29,629 nucleotides of DNA, taken from a virus. Positions within the stretch are counted from its first letter, which is position 1, and every line of letters starts with the position of its first letter. The notes below the pieces were generated by a model. It made no database searches and was not told the DNA's origin. It saw only the letters and a list, made by a program, of their open reading frames with translations. The DNA is taken from the IMG/VR virus record IMGVR_UViG_3300033153_002351, positions 1 through 29,629 of that record. One strand, given 5' to 3'. Position numbers and translations under genes: made by a program. Of this stretch, positions 6,056 to 17,420 are shown piece after piece.

Positions 6056-6082
6056 ATGCCTAGAATGTTGTATGTTATATAT

Positions 6083-6607
6083 ATGAATGCAAACTTTGAA
6101 TTAAAGACAGGAGATATCCTGCACTGCTCAGGTAAGAGACTTTTAAGTAGACTTATCAAATGGGCTACCAAAAGCGAGTACTCCCACACTGCCATGGTAA
6201 TTGAGATCTGGGGTGTGATGTGTGTAATTGATTCTCAGAAGGATGGTACCAATCCCCGCCCTCTTGAAGCTTGGCTTAAGAAATACAACTACGAGATCAT
6301 AGTTGCTCGTCGTGAACTGGCCAAGCCCAGACAAAAGGAGATCTGTATGAGAGCTATGGGCAAGTCTGGTGTGACTGGATATGATTTTGTAACACTACTG
6401 ATCCGAGCCCCATGGGGATTGCTTACAGGCAAGTGGCTCAAAGATGAGGATCCTGAGCGCGAGATGGTATGCTCGGAATTTGTGATGTACTCCTATTTCG
6501 TGGAGAACTCTGGAAGATACTCTCCTGGAATGGTGTTTGAATATACTCAAGCACACAACTTTGAGCATAAAGTTTACGTCTATGACTTGGAGGATAAAAA
6601 AGATTAA
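6083..6607 (+). CDS. Permuted NlpC/P60-like (YiiX/YebB-type) cysteine hydrolase
   Basis: I start at the ATG at 6083 (MNANFELKTGDILHCSG), giving 174 aa; the ATG at 6056 abuts a terminator T-run. The motif GDILHCSG, then KSEYSHTAMVIEIWG with its His, and near the C-terminus MVCSEFVMYSYF with its Cys, match the order in permuted papain-like NlpC/P60 proteins, where His comes before Cys. These enzymes cleave amide bonds in peptidoglycan peptides, lipids or proteins. There is no signal peptide. Its position next to the tRNA arrays says little about its target. The array A promoter overlaps its 3' end. Confidence 0.78.
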   Translation: MNANFELKTGDILHCSGKRLLSRLIKWATKSEYSHTAMVIEIWGVMCVIDSQKDGTNPRPLEAWLKKYNYEIIVARRELAKPRQKEICMRAMGKSGVTGYDFVTLLIRAPWGLLTGKWLKDEDPEREMVCSEFVMYSYFVENSGRYSPGMVFEYTQAHNFEHKVYVYDLEDKKD

Positions 6608-6616
6608 CTATATTTG
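6587..6616 (+). promoter_or_regulatory. Bacteroidota-type promoter of tRNA array A
   Basis: TTG at 6587-6589 and TATATTTG at 6609-6616 are 19 bases apart, a full match to the Bacteroidota -33/-7 pattern (TTTG, about 19-21 bases, TAnnTTTG) except for one -33 base. It lies within the 3' end of the hydrolase gene. The predicted start of transcription (about 6621-6624) falls at or just before the ATG of the leader ORF, so that mRNA would be leaderless or nearly so. Confidence 0.8.
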
Positions 6617-6623
6617 CCCCGTA

Positions 6624-6710
6624 ATGAAGAACAAAGCAACATATTTATGCAGCAGACTCTCGTTTTGGTACCGCAATAGCGGCGCCCTAGGAGAAGATTG
6701 CATAAAGTAA
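6624..6710 (+). CDS. Leader peptide A, tRNA-sensing (28 aa)
   Basis: The ORF encodes 28 aa. Residues 7-17 read YLCSRLSFWYR (codons 6642-6674). These codons match, one by one, all ten tRNAs of the array downstream: TTA by Leu(TAA), TGC by Cys, AGC by Ser(GCT), AGA by Arg(TCT), CTC by Leu(TAG), TCG by Ser(TGA), TTT by Phe, TGG by Trp, CGC by Arg(ACG), and TAT and TAC by Tyr. No other amino acid occurs in the run. The 3' part of the ORF (6686-6710) forms one side of a predicted antiterminator. I infer an attenuation leader: a ribosome stalled at any of these codons would let the array be transcribed, while a ribosome reaching the stop would allow termination. The peptide itself need not have a function. 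Confidence 0.88.
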   Translation: MKNKATYLCSRLSFWYRNSGALGEDCIK

Positions 6711-6743
6711 TGTTGAGAACATATTTATGTAAGAGCCCCTAGG
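6686..6743 (+). promoter_or_regulatory. Predicted antiterminator of leader A
   Basis: CCTAGG at 6686-6691 pairs with CCTAGG at 6738-6743; TTGCATAAA (6698-6706) pairs with TTTATGTAA (6724-6732); ATGTT (6710-6714) pairs with AACAT (6718-6722). The outer pairing takes up the core of the terminator's 5' arm, so the two folds exclude each other. A ribosome at the leader stop (6708-6710) would sit on the middle helix and break this fold. AACATATTTATG also occurs at 6638-6649, in the first control codons, so the 6701-6714 segment has a second, upstream partner. Confidence 0.7.
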
Positions 6744-6770
6744 TCGTTTGACTTAGGGGCTTTTTCTTTT
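6734..6770 (+). terminator. Attenuator terminator of tRNA array A
   Basis: A 12-bp stem (arms 6734-6745 and 6750-6761, including AGCCCCTA/TAGGGGCT) with a 4-base loop is followed by TTTTCTTTT. The T-run ends one base before tRNA-Phe, leaving no room for another promoter, so the array can only be reached by readthrough. Confidence 0.9.
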
Positions 6771-6771
6771 T

Positions 6772-6844
6772 GGAGCTATAGCAAAGATGGACTATGCGGG
6801 GGTTTGAAGAACCTTAGATACTGGATCGTTACCAGTTGGCTCCA
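6772..6844 (+). tRNA. tRNA-Phe (GAA)
   Basis: A 7-bp acceptor stem (GGAGCTA/TGGCTCC), anticodon loop TTGAAGA and a T arm with an unusual loop (ATCGTTA) are seen. First gene of array A. CCA is not encoded. Confidence 0.85.
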
Positions 6845-6851
6845 CAACAAT

Positions 6852-6921
6852 GGGATATGGAAGGATACTGGCCGGAGCTGTAACCTCTTAGCCTTGCGGG
6901 GTTCGAGTCCCTGTTATCCCA
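6852..6921 (+). tRNA. tRNA-Tyr (GTA)
   Basis: Acceptor GGGATAT/TTATCCC has one mismatch at the last pair. Anticodon loop is CTGTAAC and the T loop TTCGAGT. At 70 bases it is short for a tRNA. The D arm is poorly formed. Confidence 0.75.
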
Positions 6922-6926
6922 CAAAC

Positions 6927-7014
6927 GGAAGATAAAGCAGTGGCATGGAGCCGCGACTAGTCTTGAAAACTAGGCTACGCGCAAGCGTACGGGGGTCGGG
7001 TCCTCTGTCTTCCG
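6927..7014 (+). tRNA. tRNA-Ser (TGA)
   Basis: Acceptor GGAAGAT/GTCTTCC, discriminator G, anticodon stem CTAGT/ACTAG with loop CTTGAAA, and a long variable arm (TACGC/GCGTA) typical of serine tRNAs. The T loop (GTCGGGT) departs from consensus. Confidence 0.87.
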
Positions 7015-7019
7015 CATAC

Positions 7020-7088
7020 ACATCTTGGGCTAAGGTAGCCAAAGCGACTCCAAATCGCTAGGACAGGGTTCGATTCCTTGAGGGTGTG
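7020..7088 (+). tRNA. tRNA-Trp (CCA)
   Basis: Acceptor ACATCTT/AGGGTGT, anticodon stem AGCGA/TCGCT with loop CTCCAAA, T loop TTCGATT, and discriminator G as expected for tryptophan. Length 69. Confidence 0.87.
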
Positions 7089-7094
7089 CAACAA

Positions 7095-7168
7095 GTCACT
7101 GTGACCGAGCGGCTATAGGTCCCAGTCTGCAAAACTGTGGTACGTCAGTTCGAATCTGACCGGTGACT
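7095..7168 (+). tRNA. tRNA-Cys (GCA)
   Basis: Acceptor GTCACTG/CGGTGAC, anticodon loop CTGCAAA, T arm GTCAG/CTGAC and discriminator T, the identity base of cysteine tRNAs. Confidence 0.9.
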
Positions 7169-7174
7169 CGATAT

Positions 7175-7256
7175 AGAAGATGAACCTACCTGGGTAGGCT
7201 TCCCCTGCTAAGGGAATGGATCCGCAAGGATTGGAGATCAGGGCTTCCGTCTTCTG
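7175..7256 (+). tRNA. tRNA-Ser (GCT)
   Basis: Acceptor AGAAGAT/GTCTTCT, discriminator G, anticodon stem TTCCC/GGGAA with loop CTGCTAA and a variable arm ATCC/GGAT. Its T loop (ATCAGGG) is unusual in the same way as that of the other serine tRNA. Confidence 0.85.
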
Positions 7257-7261
7257 CTAAT

Positions 7262-7347
7262 GCCGGCGTGGCGAAATTGGCTAATACGCGCTAGTCTTAG
7301 GAACTAGTGTCTTAAGTGACGTAAGGGTTCGAGTCCCTTCGCCGGTA
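7262..7347 (+). tRNA. tRNA-Leu (TAG)
   Basis: Acceptor GCCGGCG/CGCCGGT, anticodon stem CTAGT/ACTAG with loop CTTAGGA, long variable arm, T loop TTCGAGT. It would read CTN codons. Confidence 0.9.
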
Positions 7348-7352
7348 CATAT

Positions 7353-7424
7353 AGACTGTTAGTTTAATTGGAAGAACAGGGGGCTACGAACTCCCAGACA
7401 CGGGTTCGACTCCTGTACGGTCTA
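7353..7424 (+). tRNA. tRNA-Arg (ACG)
   Basis: Acceptor AGACTGT/ACGGTCT, anticodon loop CTACGAA, T loop TTCGACT. A34 would need conversion to inosine to read CGC. Confidence 0.9.
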
Positions 7425-7431
7425 CTTTAAT

Positions 7432-7517
7432 GCCCCTGTGGTGAAATTGGTTAGACGCACCAGACTTAAAATCTGACGGACATTATGTCCATCCCGGTTC
7501 GATTCCGGGCAGGGGTA
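7432..7517 (+). tRNA. tRNA-Leu (TAA)
   Basis: Acceptor GCCCCTG/CAGGGGT, anticodon loop CTTAAAA, long variable arm (GGACATTATGTCC), T loop TTCGATT. It reads TTA and TTG. Confidence 0.92.
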
Positions 7518-7522
7518 CACAT

Positions 7523-7595
7523 AGCTCTATAGCTTAAATGGAAAAGCATCGGCCTTCTAAGCCGACGACTCTGAGTTCGACTCTCAGTGGGGCTA
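7523..7595 (+). tRNA. tRNA-Arg (TCT)
   Basis: Acceptor AGCTCTA/TGGGGCT, anticodon stem TCGGC/GCCGA with loop CTTCTAA, T arm CTGAG/CTCAG. It is the last gene of array A; the promoter of array B begins 22 bases later. Confidence 0.92.
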
Positions 7596-7616
7596 CAAAA
7601 AATAATTAAGAAAAAC

Positions 7617-7647
7617 TTTGGAAGTTTAGCAACCTTTGTTATCTTTG
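7617..7647 (+). promoter_or_regulatory. Bacteroidota-type promoter of tRNA array B
   Basis: TTTG at 7617-7620 and TATCTTTG at 7640-7647 are 19 bases apart, an exact match to the Bacteroidota consensus. The predicted transcript starts near 7653 and has about 25 A/T-rich bases before the leader ATG. Confidence 0.88.
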
Positions 7648-7676: not shown

Positions 7677-7760
7677 ATGAGACTAGCACAACATATAACG
7701 CCGATGGCGATTAATCAAGTGGAAGGGAAAGATCCCCGACTGCCTGAAGGTGTTGTGTAA
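7677..7760 (+). CDS. Leader peptide B, tRNA-sensing (27 aa)
   Basis: The ORF encodes 27 aa. Residues 4-20 read AQHITPMAINQVEGKDP (codons 7686-7736) and use only amino acids served by array B: Ala, Gln, His, Ile, Thr, Pro, Met, Asn, Val, Glu, Gly, Lys and Asp, all thirteen of them. Isoleucine appears both as ATT, read by Ile(GAT), and as ATA, which needs a lysidine-modified CAT tRNA; the array has two CAT genes. The flanking residues (MRL before, RLPEGVV after) are outside this rule. The codons after the run (7741-7750) form the 5' half of a perfect antiterminator. I infer a ribosome-mediated attenuator that responds to shortage of any of these charged tRNAs. Confidence 0.88.
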   Translation: MRLAQHITPMAINQVEGKDPRLPEGVV

Positions 7761-7799
7761 TATCTAACCGATATATAACCTACTAAACTCCTTCAGGCA
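7741..7799 (+). promoter_or_regulatory. Predicted antiterminator of leader B
   Basis: TGCCTGAAGG (7741-7750) is perfectly complementary over 10 bp to CCTTCAGGCA (7790-7799). The second segment is the 5' arm and loop of the terminator, so the folds exclude each other. A small hairpin (ATATC/GATAT, 7760-7774) fills the loop. The first segment lies between the control codons and the stop, so a ribosome at the stop would partly cover it and one stalled early would not. Confidence 0.82.
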
Positions 7800-7818
7800 A
7801 CTGAGGGAGTTTTTTTTT
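7785..7818 (+). terminator. Attenuator terminator of tRNA array B
   Basis: Arms 7785-7796 and 7801-7812 (AAACTCCTTCAG/CTGAGGGAGTTT) form a 12-bp stem with the tetraloop GCAA, followed by a run of T to 7818. tRNA-Pro starts four bases later. Stem and loop lengths equal those of the array A terminator. Confidence 0.92.
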
Positions 7819-7822
7819 GCCT

Positions 7823-7896
7823 CTAGGTGTATATCAGTCTGGTAGATTACGTGCTTTGGGAGCATGAGGCCGCAAGTTCGAATCTTGCCACCTAGA
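7823..7896 (+). tRNA. tRNA-Pro (TGG)
   Basis: Acceptor CTAGGTG/CACCTAG (with C1-G72), anticodon stem CGTGC/GCATG and loop TTTGGGA, T loop TTCGAAT. First gene of array B. Confidence 0.92.
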
Positions 7897-7987
7897 CTAG
7901 CAGGATGGTTGATTGCCACCACAACCTGAAAATTAAAAGAAATGGCAAGAGTTTTCCGGGCGGTTCTCACCAAAAACGCTCCCACCT

Positions 7988-8062
7988 GGGGCTGTAGCAA
8001 GTACTGGCTATTGCACCTGCTTTGCAAGCAGACGGTTGTGAGTTCAATTCTCACCAGCTCCA
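7988..8062 (+). tRNA. tRNA-Ala (TGC)
   Basis: Acceptor GGGGCTG/CAGCTCC, anticodon loop TTTGCAA, T arm GTGAG/CTCAC. A 91-base spacer without recognisable features separates it from tRNA-Pro. Confidence 0.92.
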
Positions 8063-8070
8063 CAATATAT

Positions 8071-8223
8071 GCGGGCGTAGCTAAGCGGTTTAGCGGGAGT
8101 CTGGGTTCATACCTGTCTTCGTCATGAGTAGTCGACCTTACCTTAAGTAAGTAGGGAGCGACATTCACTAGGAATACTTAACCTATTGAAGCTCTTACGC
8201 GAGTTCGAATCTCGTCGCCTTCA
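8071..8223 (+). tRNA. tRNA gene with an 83-base insertion in the anticodon loop, isotype undetermined
   Basis: The two halves of a tRNA are present: 5' acceptor GCGGGCG, TA, D arm (8080-8094), anticodon stem GGAGT (8096-8100); then 3' anticodon stem GCTCT (8191-8195), T arm GCGAG/CTCGT with loop TTCGAAT, and acceptor CGCCTTC. The acceptor has one mismatch and a wobble. Ninety bases lie between the stem halves where seven are expected. If 83 were removed, anticodons such as GTG, TTG or GGG are possible depending on the junction. The insert is too short for a known group I intron. It may be an intron of another kind or a disruption. Confidence 0.65.
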
Positions 8224-8307
8224 CAATAAACGTGTATAGAAACATGAGATTTCTATATATGTTCCGGAAGACGTGTATAGGATATACGATATTGTATATA
8301 CGTTCTT

Positions 8308-8380
8308 GCAGTATAAGTGTTACACGGTGGCACGTCTGGCTTCCAACCAGAGGGAGTGGGTTCGAGACCTGCATACTGCA
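8308..8380 (+). tRNA. tRNA-Gly (TCC)
   Basis: Acceptor GCAGTAT/ATACTGC, anticodon stem TCTGG/CCAGA with loop CTTCCAA, T loop TTCGAGA. The 84-base spacer before it holds hairpins with arms TATAGAAA/TTTCTATA and ATATAC/GTATAT. Confidence 0.92.
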
Positions 8381-8497
8381 CAAAAATACGGCTTGTTGGA
8401 GTGACGCCGGCGGGTTACTAAGGAGAGGGTGAGTACCTCACCAACCTTTGTCACGGGTTGGCGTATGTAAGAGCCTTGGTAGTGAGTATTTTAAAAT
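8381..8497 (+). other. Structured spacer within tRNA array B
   Basis: This 117-base spacer contains no tRNA that I can fold. It has complementary segments (GGTGAG/CTCACC with a 3-base loop; GTGAC/GTCAC; GGGTT/AACC) suggesting a compact RNA fold or the remains of a tRNA. No promoter or T-run is seen. Confidence 0.35.
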
Positions 8498-8572
8498 AGG
8501 CTATCGGTCCAGCTAGGAGTGGACGCCGCCCTGTCACGGCGGAGATCACGGGTTCAAGTCCCGTATGGCCTG
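8498..8572 (+). tRNA. tRNA-Asp (GTC)
   Basis: Acceptor AGGCTAT/ATGGCCT, discriminator G, anticodon stem CCGCC/GGCGG with loop CTGTCAC, T loop TTCAAGT. Confidence 0.92.
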
Positions 8573-8632
8573 CAAGGGAAAACCAATTCACACCCTTCAA
8601 GTGTTTGGTGACAGCGAGGAAAGACTGCACAA

Positions 8633-8705
8633 GACTTTGTAGCTGAGTCGGTTTAGCGCCTGACTGTTAATCAGGAGCACGTAGGTTCGAACCCTACCAG
8701 AGTCG
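8633..8705 (+). tRNA. tRNA-Asn (GTT)
   Basis: Acceptor GACTTTG/CAGAGTC, discriminator G, anticodon loop CTGTTAA, T arm GTAGG/CCTAC. Confidence 0.92.
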
Positions 8706-8711
8706 CAACAT

Positions 8712-8783
8712 TGGTGCATGGCCTAGCGGTAGGGCAGTATCCTGATAAGATAAAGATCGCTGGTTCGATTCCAGCTGTACCAA
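8712..8783 (+). tRNA. tRNA-Ile (GAT)
   Basis: Acceptor TGGTGCA/TGTACCA, anticodon loop CTGATAA, T arm GCTGG/CCAGC. It serves the ATT codon of leader B. Confidence 0.9.
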
Positions 8784-8788
8784 CATAT

Positions 8789-8861
8789 AGAGAAGTAGCT
8801 TAGCGGCAAAAGCGGGATCCTTACAAGGTCTTCATCGAGAGTTCGAGTCTCTCCTTCTCTA
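8789..8861 (+). tRNA. tRNA-Val (TAC)
   Basis: Acceptor AGAGAAG/CTTCTCT, anticodon loop CTTACAA, T arm GAGAG/CTCTC. Confidence 0.92.
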
Positions 8862-8928
8862 CACATAATAAGTTTAATAAACACCGTAAGTTTAAACATG
8901 AAAATAAAACACGCCATAAAACCCTAGG

Positions 8929-9002
8929 GGGCCTTTAGCTCAATTGGTCGGAGCAGCGCACTCATAATGCGAAGGTCGCCGGTTCAATCCCGGCAAGGCC
9001 CA
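8929..9002 (+). tRNA. tRNA with anticodon CAT (Met or lysidine-type Ile2)
   Basis: Acceptor GGGCCTT/AAGGCCC, anticodon loop CTCATAA, T arm GCCGG/CCGGC. Its body recalls the Ile2 tRNAs whose C34 is modified to lysidine to read ATA. Leader B contains an ATA codon, which supports having one such tRNA in the array. Confidence 0.88.
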
Positions 9003-9007
9003 CACAT

Positions 9008-9080
9008 GCGTCGGCAGCTTGACTGGAGGAGCACCGCCCTTTTAAGGCGGGGGTAGTGGGTTCGAGACCCACGCGGCGTA
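9008..9080 (+). tRNA. tRNA-Lys (TTT)
   Basis: Anticodon stem CCGCC/GGCGG with loop CTTTTAA and T arm GTGGG/CCCAC are clear. The acceptor (GCGTCGG/GCGGCGT) has one mismatch and two wobbles. Confidence 0.88.
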
Positions 9081-9091
9081 CAAAATATATT

Positions 9092-9164
9092 GCGGGGTAG
9101 ACTGGAGTTGGCCCCAGCCAGGTCTCATAAGCCTAGGACGCGGGTTCGAATCCCGCCCACCGCA
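9092..9164 (+). tRNA. tRNA-Met (CAT)
   Basis: Anticodon loop CTCATAA and T arm GCGGG/CCCGC are clear; the acceptor (GCGGGGT/CCACCGC) pairs well only at its outer end. With another CAT tRNA at 8929, one of the two is probably elongator or initiator Met and the other Ile2; I favour Met here. Confidence 0.82.
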
Positions 9165-9245
9165 ACAACATGTTAACACGAGTTAAAATGAACAACGTAT
9201 TTAACATATCAGTATCAGGACTAGAGGAACCAGTAGAGGAGATCT

Positions 9246-9318
9246 GCTCGGTTCGTCTAGCTGGACAGGACGTGCCCCTTTCAAGGGTAAAACACGGGTT
9301 CGATCCCCGTACCGAGTA
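9246..9318 (+). tRNA. tRNA-Glu (TTC)
   Basis: Acceptor GCTCGGT/ACCGAGT, anticodon stem TGCCC/GGGTA with loop CTTTCAA, T arm ACGGG/CCCGT. The 81-base spacer before it carries an ORF that runs into the tRNA; see findings. Confidence 0.92.
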
Positions 9319-9349
9319 CTTGTATCATCATACCCAGCAGTAATTATAT

Positions 9350-9422
9350 TCCTCCTAAGCTTTGCTGGCGAAGCAACTGTTTTGTAAACAGAGGATAGTC
9401 AGTTCGATTCTGACAGGAGGAT
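9350..9422 (+). tRNA. tRNA-Thr (TGT)
   Basis: Acceptor TCCTCCT/AGGAGGA, discriminator T, anticodon loop TTTGTAA, T arm GTCAG/CTGAC. Confidence 0.92.
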
Positions 9423-9428
9423 CTATAA

Positions 9429-9500
9429 TCCCGGATCGTCTAATTGGCAGGACATGTGGTTTTGGGCCATAGAATGCAGGTTCGAACCCTGCTCTGGGAT
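9429..9500 (+). tRNA. tRNA-Gln (TTG)
   Basis: Acceptor TCCCGGA/TCTGGGA with the T1-A72 pair usual for glutamine, anticodon loop TTTTGGG, T arm GCAGG/CCTGC. Confidence 0.9.
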
Positions 9501-9502
9501 CT

Positions 9503-9576
9503 GTGTAGGAAGCCGAAGTGGTCGAGGCGCCAGTTTGTGGTACTGGTCGGTGCGGGTTCGAGTCCCGTCTTACACC
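9503..9576 (+). tRNA. tRNA-His (GTG)
   Basis: Acceptor GTGTAGG/CTTACAC with discriminator C as in histidine tRNAs, anticodon stem CCAGT/ACTGG with loop TTGTGGT, T arm GCGGG/CCCGT. Last gene of array B; it completes coverage of all 20 amino acids. Confidence 0.92.
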
Positions 9577-9639
9577 CTAATATTTTTTTGTTATCTTTAT
9601 GGTGACGATATTGTCACATTACCATGAAAACTAACGAAG

Positions 9640-10059
9640 ATGGTAACTACATTCAATACCAAGGATCTCACGTCCTTTGGTCAATATCTGCTTTCTGCAG
9701 AAAGACGTGAACGATTTAAGAACAATCCAAACTTTCAGGATCATGAAATTCTTGAGCTACGATTAGCTGAGGTTCATCATGCTGATGTTGAAAATTGGAA
9801 AGATTCAATTTCTAAAGTCCAGAAGGTTCGGGCTAAATTCAGATGTAATAATGTTGATTCGGAAAATGTAACAGGCGATTCTCGAAACATTCAAATGGAG
9901 GTTGTCATTGATGGGAGCCCTGAGAATAAAGAGTTTTCTGAATACACTCCTTATGGTCAATTCAACATTGGTATTGATAAAGGAGCTAAAGCGCTTGAGC
10001 TGTTCGAAGAAGGACGCGAATACTACATCGATATCATTAAGGCTCCAGTGGAGTCTTAG
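9640..10059 (+). CDS. Hypothetical phage protein downstream of the tRNA arrays
   Basis: The 139-aa product begins MVTTFNTKDLTSFGQYLLSA and has HADVENWKDS near residue 50. The pattern FNTKDL.SFG.YLLS.ER followed by HADVENWK is familiar to me from hypothetical proteins of Bacteroidota and their phages, without a function. A positively charged first half is followed by a beta-rich acidic second half. The nearest upstream feature is tRNA-His, with only a hairpin (GTGAC/GTCAC, about 9602-9617) and a partial -7 element (TATCTTTA) between, so readthrough from array B could express it. Another 28-codon ORF (9624-9710) overlaps its start. Confidence 0.75.
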   Translation: MVTTFNTKDLTSFGQYLLSAERRERFKNNPNFQDHEILELRLAEVHHADVENWKDSISKVQKVRAKFRCNNVDSENVTGDSRNIQMEVVIDGSPENKEFSEYTPYGQFNIGIDKGAKALELFEEGREYYIDIIKAPVES

Positions 10060-16523: not shown

Positions 16524-17420
16524 ATGTATATAAAAGAAGGTTCAAGAGAGAAAGATCTTATCAAGGAGATCCAGAAAGAAATAGGTGTGCTTATAGACGG
16601 AGACTTTGGCCCTATGACCAAAGCAGCTGTTCAAAGATGGCAATTAGCACATGGTTTAAATCCAGATGGTATAGTAGGTCCAGATACCATGGAAGAAATG
16701 GGTATATTAGATACGGATATATCTAATAACCTCTACAAGTTGGATAATGGTCTTCAGATAGAACGTTATCATTTACCTCGAGGTGAGTACATTGAAAATC
16801 CCAAGAACGGAAAAGACAACGATTACGTATTCATCCATCACACAGCCGGGTGGGAAAACCCCTATCGCGTTATTGATTCTTGGGGAAGAGATAGTCGTGG
16901 ACGTGTAGCTACCGAATTCGTAATAGGAGGACAGAAAGTTACTACTAATGCTGATAAGCATGACGGTAGAGTTCTCCAGGCATTTCCGGAAGGATGTCAA
17001 GGATGGCATTTAGGTCGCGTTGGTTCTGATCATATGCGTCGTCATTCAGTAGGAATTGAGATCTGCGCTTTTGGATATCTTAAAGGAGGTAAAACCTATG
17101 TAGGCGGTACAGTTATTAAAAATCAAGTATCTGAATTAGATGAAGAGTTCCGTGGATTCTACAGATGGCATAAATATTCAGATGCTCAAATTGAGTCTAC
17201 CAGAAAGCTTTTGCTTCATATTGCTAAAAGAGACAATATTGACCTCAAGGTAGGATTAGTGGAGTGGATCCACAAGTATGGAGGTAACAAGGCCTTTGAA
17301 TTTCAACAAGAGGCATATGAAGGTAACGTAAAAGGGTTACTTACTCATACTAACGTTCGTAAGGATAAATATGACAACTTTCCTCAACCTGAGCTAATTG
17401 ATATGTTGCTAACCCTGTAG
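16524..17420 (+). CDS. Endolysin: N-acetylmuramoyl-L-alanine amidase with peptidoglycan-binding domain
   Basis: The 298-aa protein has a PG_binding_1-type domain at residues 8-62 (IKEIQKEIGVLIDGDFGPMT, AVQRWQLAHGLNPDGIVGPD) and an Amidase_2 domain at about 100-290. Zinc-binding candidates are His105/His106 in FIHHTAGW and His275 with Asp281 or Asp284 in HTNVRKDKYDN, the standard places for this family. GWHLG and SVGIEICAFG are family blocks. The enzyme cleaves the bond between MurNAc and L-Ala in peptidoglycan. It has no signal peptide, so export at lysis would need a holin. It shares the late strand with its neighbours. Confidence 0.92.
   Translation: MYIKEGSREKDLIKEIQKEIGVLIDGDFGPMTKAAVQRWQLAHGLNPDGIVGPDTMEEMGILDTDISNNLYKLDNGLQIERYHLPRGEYIENPKNGKDNDYVFIHHTAGWENPYRVIDSWGRDSRGRVATEFVIGGQKVTTNADKHDGRVLQAFPEGCQGWHLGRVGSDHMRRHSVGIEICAFGYLKGGKTYVGGTVIKNQVSELDEEFRGFYRWHKYSDAQIESTRKLLLHIAKRDNIDLKVGLVEWIHKYGGNKAFEFQQEAYEGNVKGLLTHTNVRKDKYDNFPQPELIDMLLTL

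Follow-up and report, generated by a model that had tools for sequence, protein, structure and literature searches.

Ribosome-mediated attenuation is known for the trp, his, pheA and thr operons, with multivalent leaders in ilvGMEDA and thr, and in pheST, through the PheM leader, a tRNA synthetase gene is under attenuation. With the organization that we predict for phage tRNA arrays, amino-acid operon attenuators share a short leader ORF carrying regulatory codons, alternative antiterminator and terminator structures, and a stop codon positioned to mask the antiterminator strand. pheST shares the stalling-based attenuation of a translation component, and T-box riboswitches likewise act on a terminator in response to tRNA status.

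What tRNA arrays do for phages has been a matter of debate for decades. One proposal is that phage tRNA clusters counter tRNA depletion in infection (van den Berg et al. 2023, PMC10264068). That work concerns anticodon-loop mutations and phage tRNAs that resist host anticodon nucleases, and its text is silent on attenuation, leader peptides and operons; nor did we find a prior description of such leaders in the open-licence literature. Here we describe leader ORFs ahead of phage tRNA arrays and propose, with a probability of roughly 0.9, that a ribosome-mediated attenuator controls each array and tests the supply of nearly every tRNA that it encodes.

Short ORFs matched to two tRNA arrays

The window, that is, the whole 29.6-kb IMG/VR virus record analysed here, has a portal, terminase and major head protein that match crAss-like phage families. 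It carries two tRNA arrays at ~6.6–9.6 kb, each preceded by the same series of elements: TTGG-N18-TAnnTTTG, a short ORF, a terminator and, ~8–11 nt past the terminator stem, the first tRNA (Table 1). TAnnTTTG is a reported Bacteroides promoter element and, given the 7 nt that separate predicted promoter A from the ATG, the leader A mRNA is probably near-leaderless. Elsewhere in the window, an endolysin gene (Amidase_2, peptidoglycan-binding) lies at 16524–17420.

Table 1 Features of the two tRNA operons in the window, with the three leaders of phage region L099
Feature	Position	Strand	Details
Predicted promoter A	6587..6616	+	TTGG-N18-TATATTTG; ends 7 nt ahead of ATG
Leader peptide A ORF	6624..6710	+	28 codons, MKNKATYLCSRLSFWYRNSGALGEDCIK, then stop
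Core A	6642..6674	+	TAT TTA TGC AGC AGA CTC TCG TTT TGG TAC CGC = YLCSRLSFWYR
Predicted antiterminator A	6681..6742	+	GGCGCCCTAGGA and GCATAAAGTAATGTT pair with AACATATTTATGTAAGAGCCCCTAGG (includes terminator 5' arm)
Intrinsic terminator A	6731..6770	+	15 bp stem, T tract; tRNA-Phe directly after
tRNA array A	6772..7596	+	Phe, Tyr, Ser(TGA), Trp, Cys, Ser(GCT), Leu(TAG), Arg(ACG), Leu(TAA), Arg(TCT)
Predicted promoter B	7618..7647	+	TTGG-N18-TATCTTTG
Leader peptide B ORF	7677..7760	+	MRLAQHITPMAINQVEGKDPRLPEGVV, then stop
Core B	7686..7736	+	AQHITPMAINQVEGKDP, 17 codons
Predicted antiterminator B	7741..7798	+	TGCCTGAAGGTGTTG pairs with AAACTCCTTCAGGC (terminator 5' arm), 9 contiguous bp
Intrinsic terminator B	7785..7820	+	12 bp stem, T9
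tRNA array B	7823..9577	+	Pro, Ala, Gly, Asp, Asn, Ile, Val, Met, Lys, Met, Glu, Thr, Gln, His
L099 leader 1			GRHIEQPIMDRA; array P D G M E A I Q H R
L099 leader 2			NWNKVFK; array K V N W F
L099 leader 3			SYCLLTLSYT; array L T C S Y

An earlier, sequence-only reading of leader A had assigned ten tRNAs to array A, and these assignments hold. ARAGORN called seven of them at default and Tyr (6852–6922) and Ser-TGA (6927–7015) only after its threshold was relaxed; Ser-GCT (~7177–7258), uncalled in the window even then, is supported by orthologues called in four relatives and by a pattern built on the window's copy, which finds orthologues in relatives. Translation and codon listing also confirmed the ORF and, at its residues 7–17, the run that we term core A, whose 11 codons cover all seven amino acids that array A serves (F, Y, S, W, C, L and R) and both Leu, Ser and Arg boxes. 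That the run holds a codon for every tRNA, isoacceptors included, is right at the level of codon boxes but not as strict Watson–Crick matching, because CTC needs Leu(UAG) to read by four-way wobble. The same reading had counted, correctly, 25 of 61 sense codons for these seven amino acids and put the run's chance occurrence at about 5 in 100,000. Monte Carlo values for 7/7 coverage in one uninterrupted in-set run within a random ORF of leader A length came close to this (p = 1e-5 under the codon usage of the window and 1.7e-4 under uniform codons). Beyond that reading lie leader B, whose core covers 13/13 array B amino acids and none from array A, and the recurrence of the arrangement in other phages.

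Six of the amino acids served by array A, namely F, L, S, Y, C and W, are exactly those with U-starting codons, to which the window adds Arg (6772–7596); array A of two further phage regions, L089 and L100, comprises exactly this set and nothing extra. The second tRNA-Met of array B (9091–9166) is probably the initiator. At 8070–8226, tRNA-like ends uncalled at default stand ~155 nt apart and may be the remains of an interrupted or decayed tRNA gene, a reading with only a weak Rfam match (8154–8226) behind it. Some 110 nt between tRNA-Gly and tRNA-Asp (8384–8495) are tRNA-free, and gaps without an assigned gene likewise adjoin tRNA-Gly in L089 and L100.

Recurrence in unrelated phages

The same arrangement was found in crAss-like metagenomic phages, Cellulophaga phage phi17:2, Leptolyngbya phage Lbo-JY46, Vibrio phage D69 and 16 Stenotrophomonas records; the 20 leaders analysed represent about seven lineages and not 20 independent events. 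The stop codon lies 57–76 nt ahead of the first tRNA in the detector-found cases. TAnnTTTG occurs within ~32 nt of the start in 16/20 leaders, compared with 0.5 per kb in the window, and the promoter motif precedes the leader in most Bacteroidota-type cases.

A 122-kb relative with a 69% identical portal has two operons as in the window, but operon B is where its Arg(TCT) and Arg(ACG) genes lie; Arg is missing from the core of its leader A, and AGA and CGC occur in that of its leader B. L100 has the same layout. The Arg tRNA genes sit together with AGA/CGC codons, in operon A in the window and in operon B in L089 and L100. L099 has three operons, each with its own leader (Table 1), the arrays of cultured phi17:2 are split into three operons with three leaders, and Lbo-JY46 and its metagenomic relative L110 have three leaders each. 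Outside this group, the D69 core, 24 codons long with 11/11 coverage, is identical in D148 and D181. Leader coverage is 14/15 in Stenotrophomonas phage IME-SM1 (a Menderavirus, which we take to be T4-like), where the predicted antiterminator has 10 bp, and this leader was found in 16 Stenotrophomonas phage records.

Some tRNA genes of these phages lie outside the arrangement. A first tRNA group of IME-SM1 (Arg, Ile, His; L119:1291–1618) is upstream of the leader, and those amino acids are missing from the core; the first array of D69 (L105:5001–6468) has no matching leader or terminator, whereas its second array has both. Lbo-JY46 (L102:1785–6250) has a cyanobacterial host on record, yet TTTGGTAG / TAnnTTTG promoters stand ahead of its leaders and its portal is crAss-like, and the host record deserves a check. 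Its leader 2 (L102:5391–5471) keeps Tyr and AGY codons although the Tyr and Ser(GCT) tRNA genes of L110 are gone, with a protein gene in their place (L102:5687–6060); from the sequence, we read this as a recent tRNA loss to which the leader has not yet adapted.

A terminator and matching ORF preceded the tRNAs in 10 of 30 phage regions scanned. In the other 20 tRNA-bearing regions no matching leader was found: Myrna, EFDG1, Acj9, Kehishuvirus tikkala, cr108_1, GMA2, Erwinia pEa_SNUABM_43, XacN1, Sixama, Hades, csAssE-Sib (25 kb), T5, T4, F1M1E, DSS3_MAL1, W10-2, D6, Aeromonas D3, nt-1 and TrudiGerster. A relaxed match in Kehishuvirus tikkala was discarded because it overlaps a tRNA gene. By tRNA search, only 1 of 20 records of portal relatives (64–69% identity) has an array, so the distribution is patchy. 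No relatives were found for the protein at 6056–6607, and the four found for that at 9640–10059 have no array. A pattern scan of genome contigs gave no match, and a scan of 80 viral loci returned only the L099 genome again and added L151, which has a terminator without a matching ORF.

Leader codons track the tRNA content of each array

For 19 leader/array pairs, mean in-run coverage was 0.976, compared with 0.44 for permuted leaders and arrays and a maximum of 0.655 among 5000 permutations. When the arrays of a single phage are compared, almost all leaders match the array that they precede but not a sister array; the exception is array 2 of Lbo-JY46, a two-amino-acid set. When only the first 70% of each leader was considered and no core was chosen, an amino acid was present in the leader in 163/168 cases with its tRNA in the array and in 65/232 without (p = 1.9e-50, 20 leaders; p = 4.9e-37 when a single phage represents each lineage). 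These p-values serve as guides, since the amino acids of any one leader lack strict independence. For split codon families, cores contained 46/47 boxes present in the array and 2/73 absent ones (p = 1e-29); the core is picked by amino-acid set, and the box test is therefore independent of that pick only for isoacceptors. In phi17:2, operon 1 has Arg(ACG) and its leader the codon CGT, operon 2 has Arg(TCT) and its leader AGA, and Arg isoacceptors are likewise split, across operons 3 and 1, in Lbo-JY46 and L110. Besides the Tyr and AGY codons kept in leader 2 of Lbo-JY46, the mismatches are small: Met, missing from leader 2 of phi17:2 and leader 1 of both Lbo-JY46 and L110 despite tRNA-Met in their arrays, and Leu(CAA), missing from the IME-SM1 leader.

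Small amino-acid sets give only modest probabilities for a single case (p = 0.14 for leader 2 of Lbo-JY46 and 0.02 for that of L110), and taken singly such matches could reflect chance or a biased composition of short ORFs ahead of arrays. As an account of the whole set this is negligible, being excluded by the permutation and association tests (p < 1e-36 with one phage per lineage); moreover, leaders track array content, and the cores compared change only synonymously, with five synonymous and zero amino-acid changes between the leader B cores of L089 and L112. The comparison with relatives that had been proposed as a check points the same way, since the leaders of array-bearing relatives track their own array content, including where a tRNA gene lies in another operon.

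It could also be argued that the leader peptide is itself the product, for example an anti-defence peptide, and the D69 ORF and phi17:2 gp077 are indeed annotated as hypothetical proteins. We give this hardly any credence, because between lineages only the amino-acid set is conserved, residue order being free, and the distal leader follows RNA pairing instead.

Predicted terminators, antiterminators and switching points

An intrinsic terminator lies between the leader ORF and the first tRNA in all 20 leaders. The best complement of the terminator 5' arm, examined in 19 leaders, falls in nearly all of them 0–25 nt past the start of the last core codon, and near or before the stop codon (combined p = 1e-13). 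Folding with the mRNA masked as by a stalled ribosome predicted sequestration of the terminator 5' arm at 0.60 for core stalls versus 0.08 for a ribosome at the stop, in the same direction in 20/20 leaders. With a strict 15-nt footprint the antiterminator went unseen in some leaders; scanning stalls at 10, 13 and 16 nt, together with a duplex search, resolved this. Where the gap after the core is short, a ribosome halted at any of the final one to three core codons would already cover part of the antiterminator. The codon at which the predicted fold switches differs from the core end by -0.45 +/- 1.36 codons (Spearman 0.93). Core end comes from tRNA content and switching point from RNA folding, and because these are separate measures, we regard their agreement as the strongest evidence for trp-like attenuation.

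In the window, antiterminator B pairs better than shuffles in the duplex search (p = 0.002). AACATATTTATG is present both in core A and beside the terminator arm, so that GCATAAAGTAATGTT could pair with either, and the predicted pairing alternatives of leader A correspond to the classical 1:2 / 2:3 arrangement. Between L089 and L112, the leader B terminator arm and its partner have co-changed in a compensatory manner: pairing energies are -18.8 and -19.8 kcal/mol for their own partners and -10.6 and -13.1 kcal/mol when swapped. For D69, the duplex test did not set the terminator partner apart from shuffles (p = 0.51). With D69 weak in that test, the criterion of a mutually exclusive antiterminator, favoured by stalls and blocked at the stop, is met in computation only.

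A stable attenuator-like fold is not in itself proof of the trp mechanism, and a translation-linked mechanism of another kind, such as RNA protection, tRNA precursor processing, Rho access or T-box-like direct tRNA binding, has to be weighed; a weak Rfam trpB motif match (6644–6772) stays below threshold, with 34.4 bits against a cut-off of 59. We consider these options very unlikely, since every leader is followed by an intrinsic terminator to which part of the distal leader is complementary, the core end coincides with the predicted switching point, codon matching requires translation, and no T-box or other riboswitch exceeded Rfam gathering scores in the window. The leaders meet the testable sequence features of leader-peptide attenuators; their translation and read-through in vivo are inferred.

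Proposed mechanism and the signal sensed

Under the attenuator reading, RNA polymerase would start just upstream of the leader, with a ribosome trailing through the core codons. If all cognate tRNAs were supplied, the ribosome would reach the distal leader and stop codon and cover the antiterminator 5' strand, upon which the terminator would form and the array remain untranscribed. Were one tRNA scarce (cleaved, decayed or outcompeted), the ribosome would stall at a core codon short of that strand, leaving the antiterminator to take the terminator 5' arm and transcription to read through into the array. The tRNAs made would restore supply and close the switch, a negative feedback, and the switch would act as an OR gate over up to 14–15 amino acids. 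This reading rests on the leaders, their cores and terminators, matching content, operon tracking, covariation and the alignment of core end with switching point; stalling, antitermination and feedback in infected cells are inferred only, as is tRNA loss as the usual trigger. The idea that translation of leader A tests the supply of each array tRNA is thus supported, by sequence and folding evidence alone and without expression data.

Arg CGN and AGR codons follow their own tRNA genes across operons, which suggests that decoding capacity is sensed rather than amino acids. Since host tRNAs can also read the core codons, only a loss of the total supply could act as the trigger; this, we infer, would be expected if host tRNAs were cleaved or decaying in infection, the hypothesis of van den Berg et al. 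(PMC10264068). A classical amino-acid attenuator, sensing uncharged tRNA and with the tRNA genes as merely controlled targets, would use identical stalling chemistry, and uncharged tRNA would trigger the switch too. We nevertheless find this improbable. Matching reaches the isoacceptor-box level (Arg in phi17:2, Lbo-JY46 and L110), a split that an amino-acid sensor does not need, and one-box-only cases give 8/9 versus 2/9 (p = 0.015), albeit in a small sample; in addition, up to 14–15 amino acids are tested at once, and a shortage of amino acids is not relieved by extra tRNA.

With somewhat less assurance than for attenuation itself, we favour the view that several unrelated tRNA-rich lineages carry an on-demand module, in which isoacceptor-resolving multi-tRNA OR-gate attenuators turn the array on at tRNA loss, caused, for example, by a host anticodon-nuclease defence or by host shut-off. 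If true, some phages gauge the translation of nearly every cognate codon and make array tRNAs only when a cognate tRNA is missing and not by default, a behaviour more in keeping with a response to tRNA depletion than with static codon compensation. Such a dedicated tRNA-depletion alarm would explain phage arrays and their split into operons, and would provide a natural reporter of tRNA depletion in infection. These ideas are testable in cultured phages, namely phi17:2 and Stenotrophomonas phages Moby, Mendera and IME-SM1.

Comparison with known attenuators

If the attenuator reading is correct, attenuation is widened from one to three amino acids, as tested in amino-acid operons, to as many as 14–15 in one peptide, usually with one to a few codons each. 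The target also differs, amino-acid operon attenuators acting on enzymes and the phage leaders on tRNA genes. Isoacceptor resolution, occurrence in phages and, in Bacteroidota-type cases, a near-leaderless start set the phage leaders apart from those attenuators. pheST differs in testing a single amino acid, in controlling a synthetase gene and in its location on the host chromosome, and T-box riboswitches differ in binding tRNA directly through RNA, with no leader ORF. Relative to known attenuators, the novelty lies in the phage tRNA array as target, the number of tRNAs tested and the resolution of isoacceptors.
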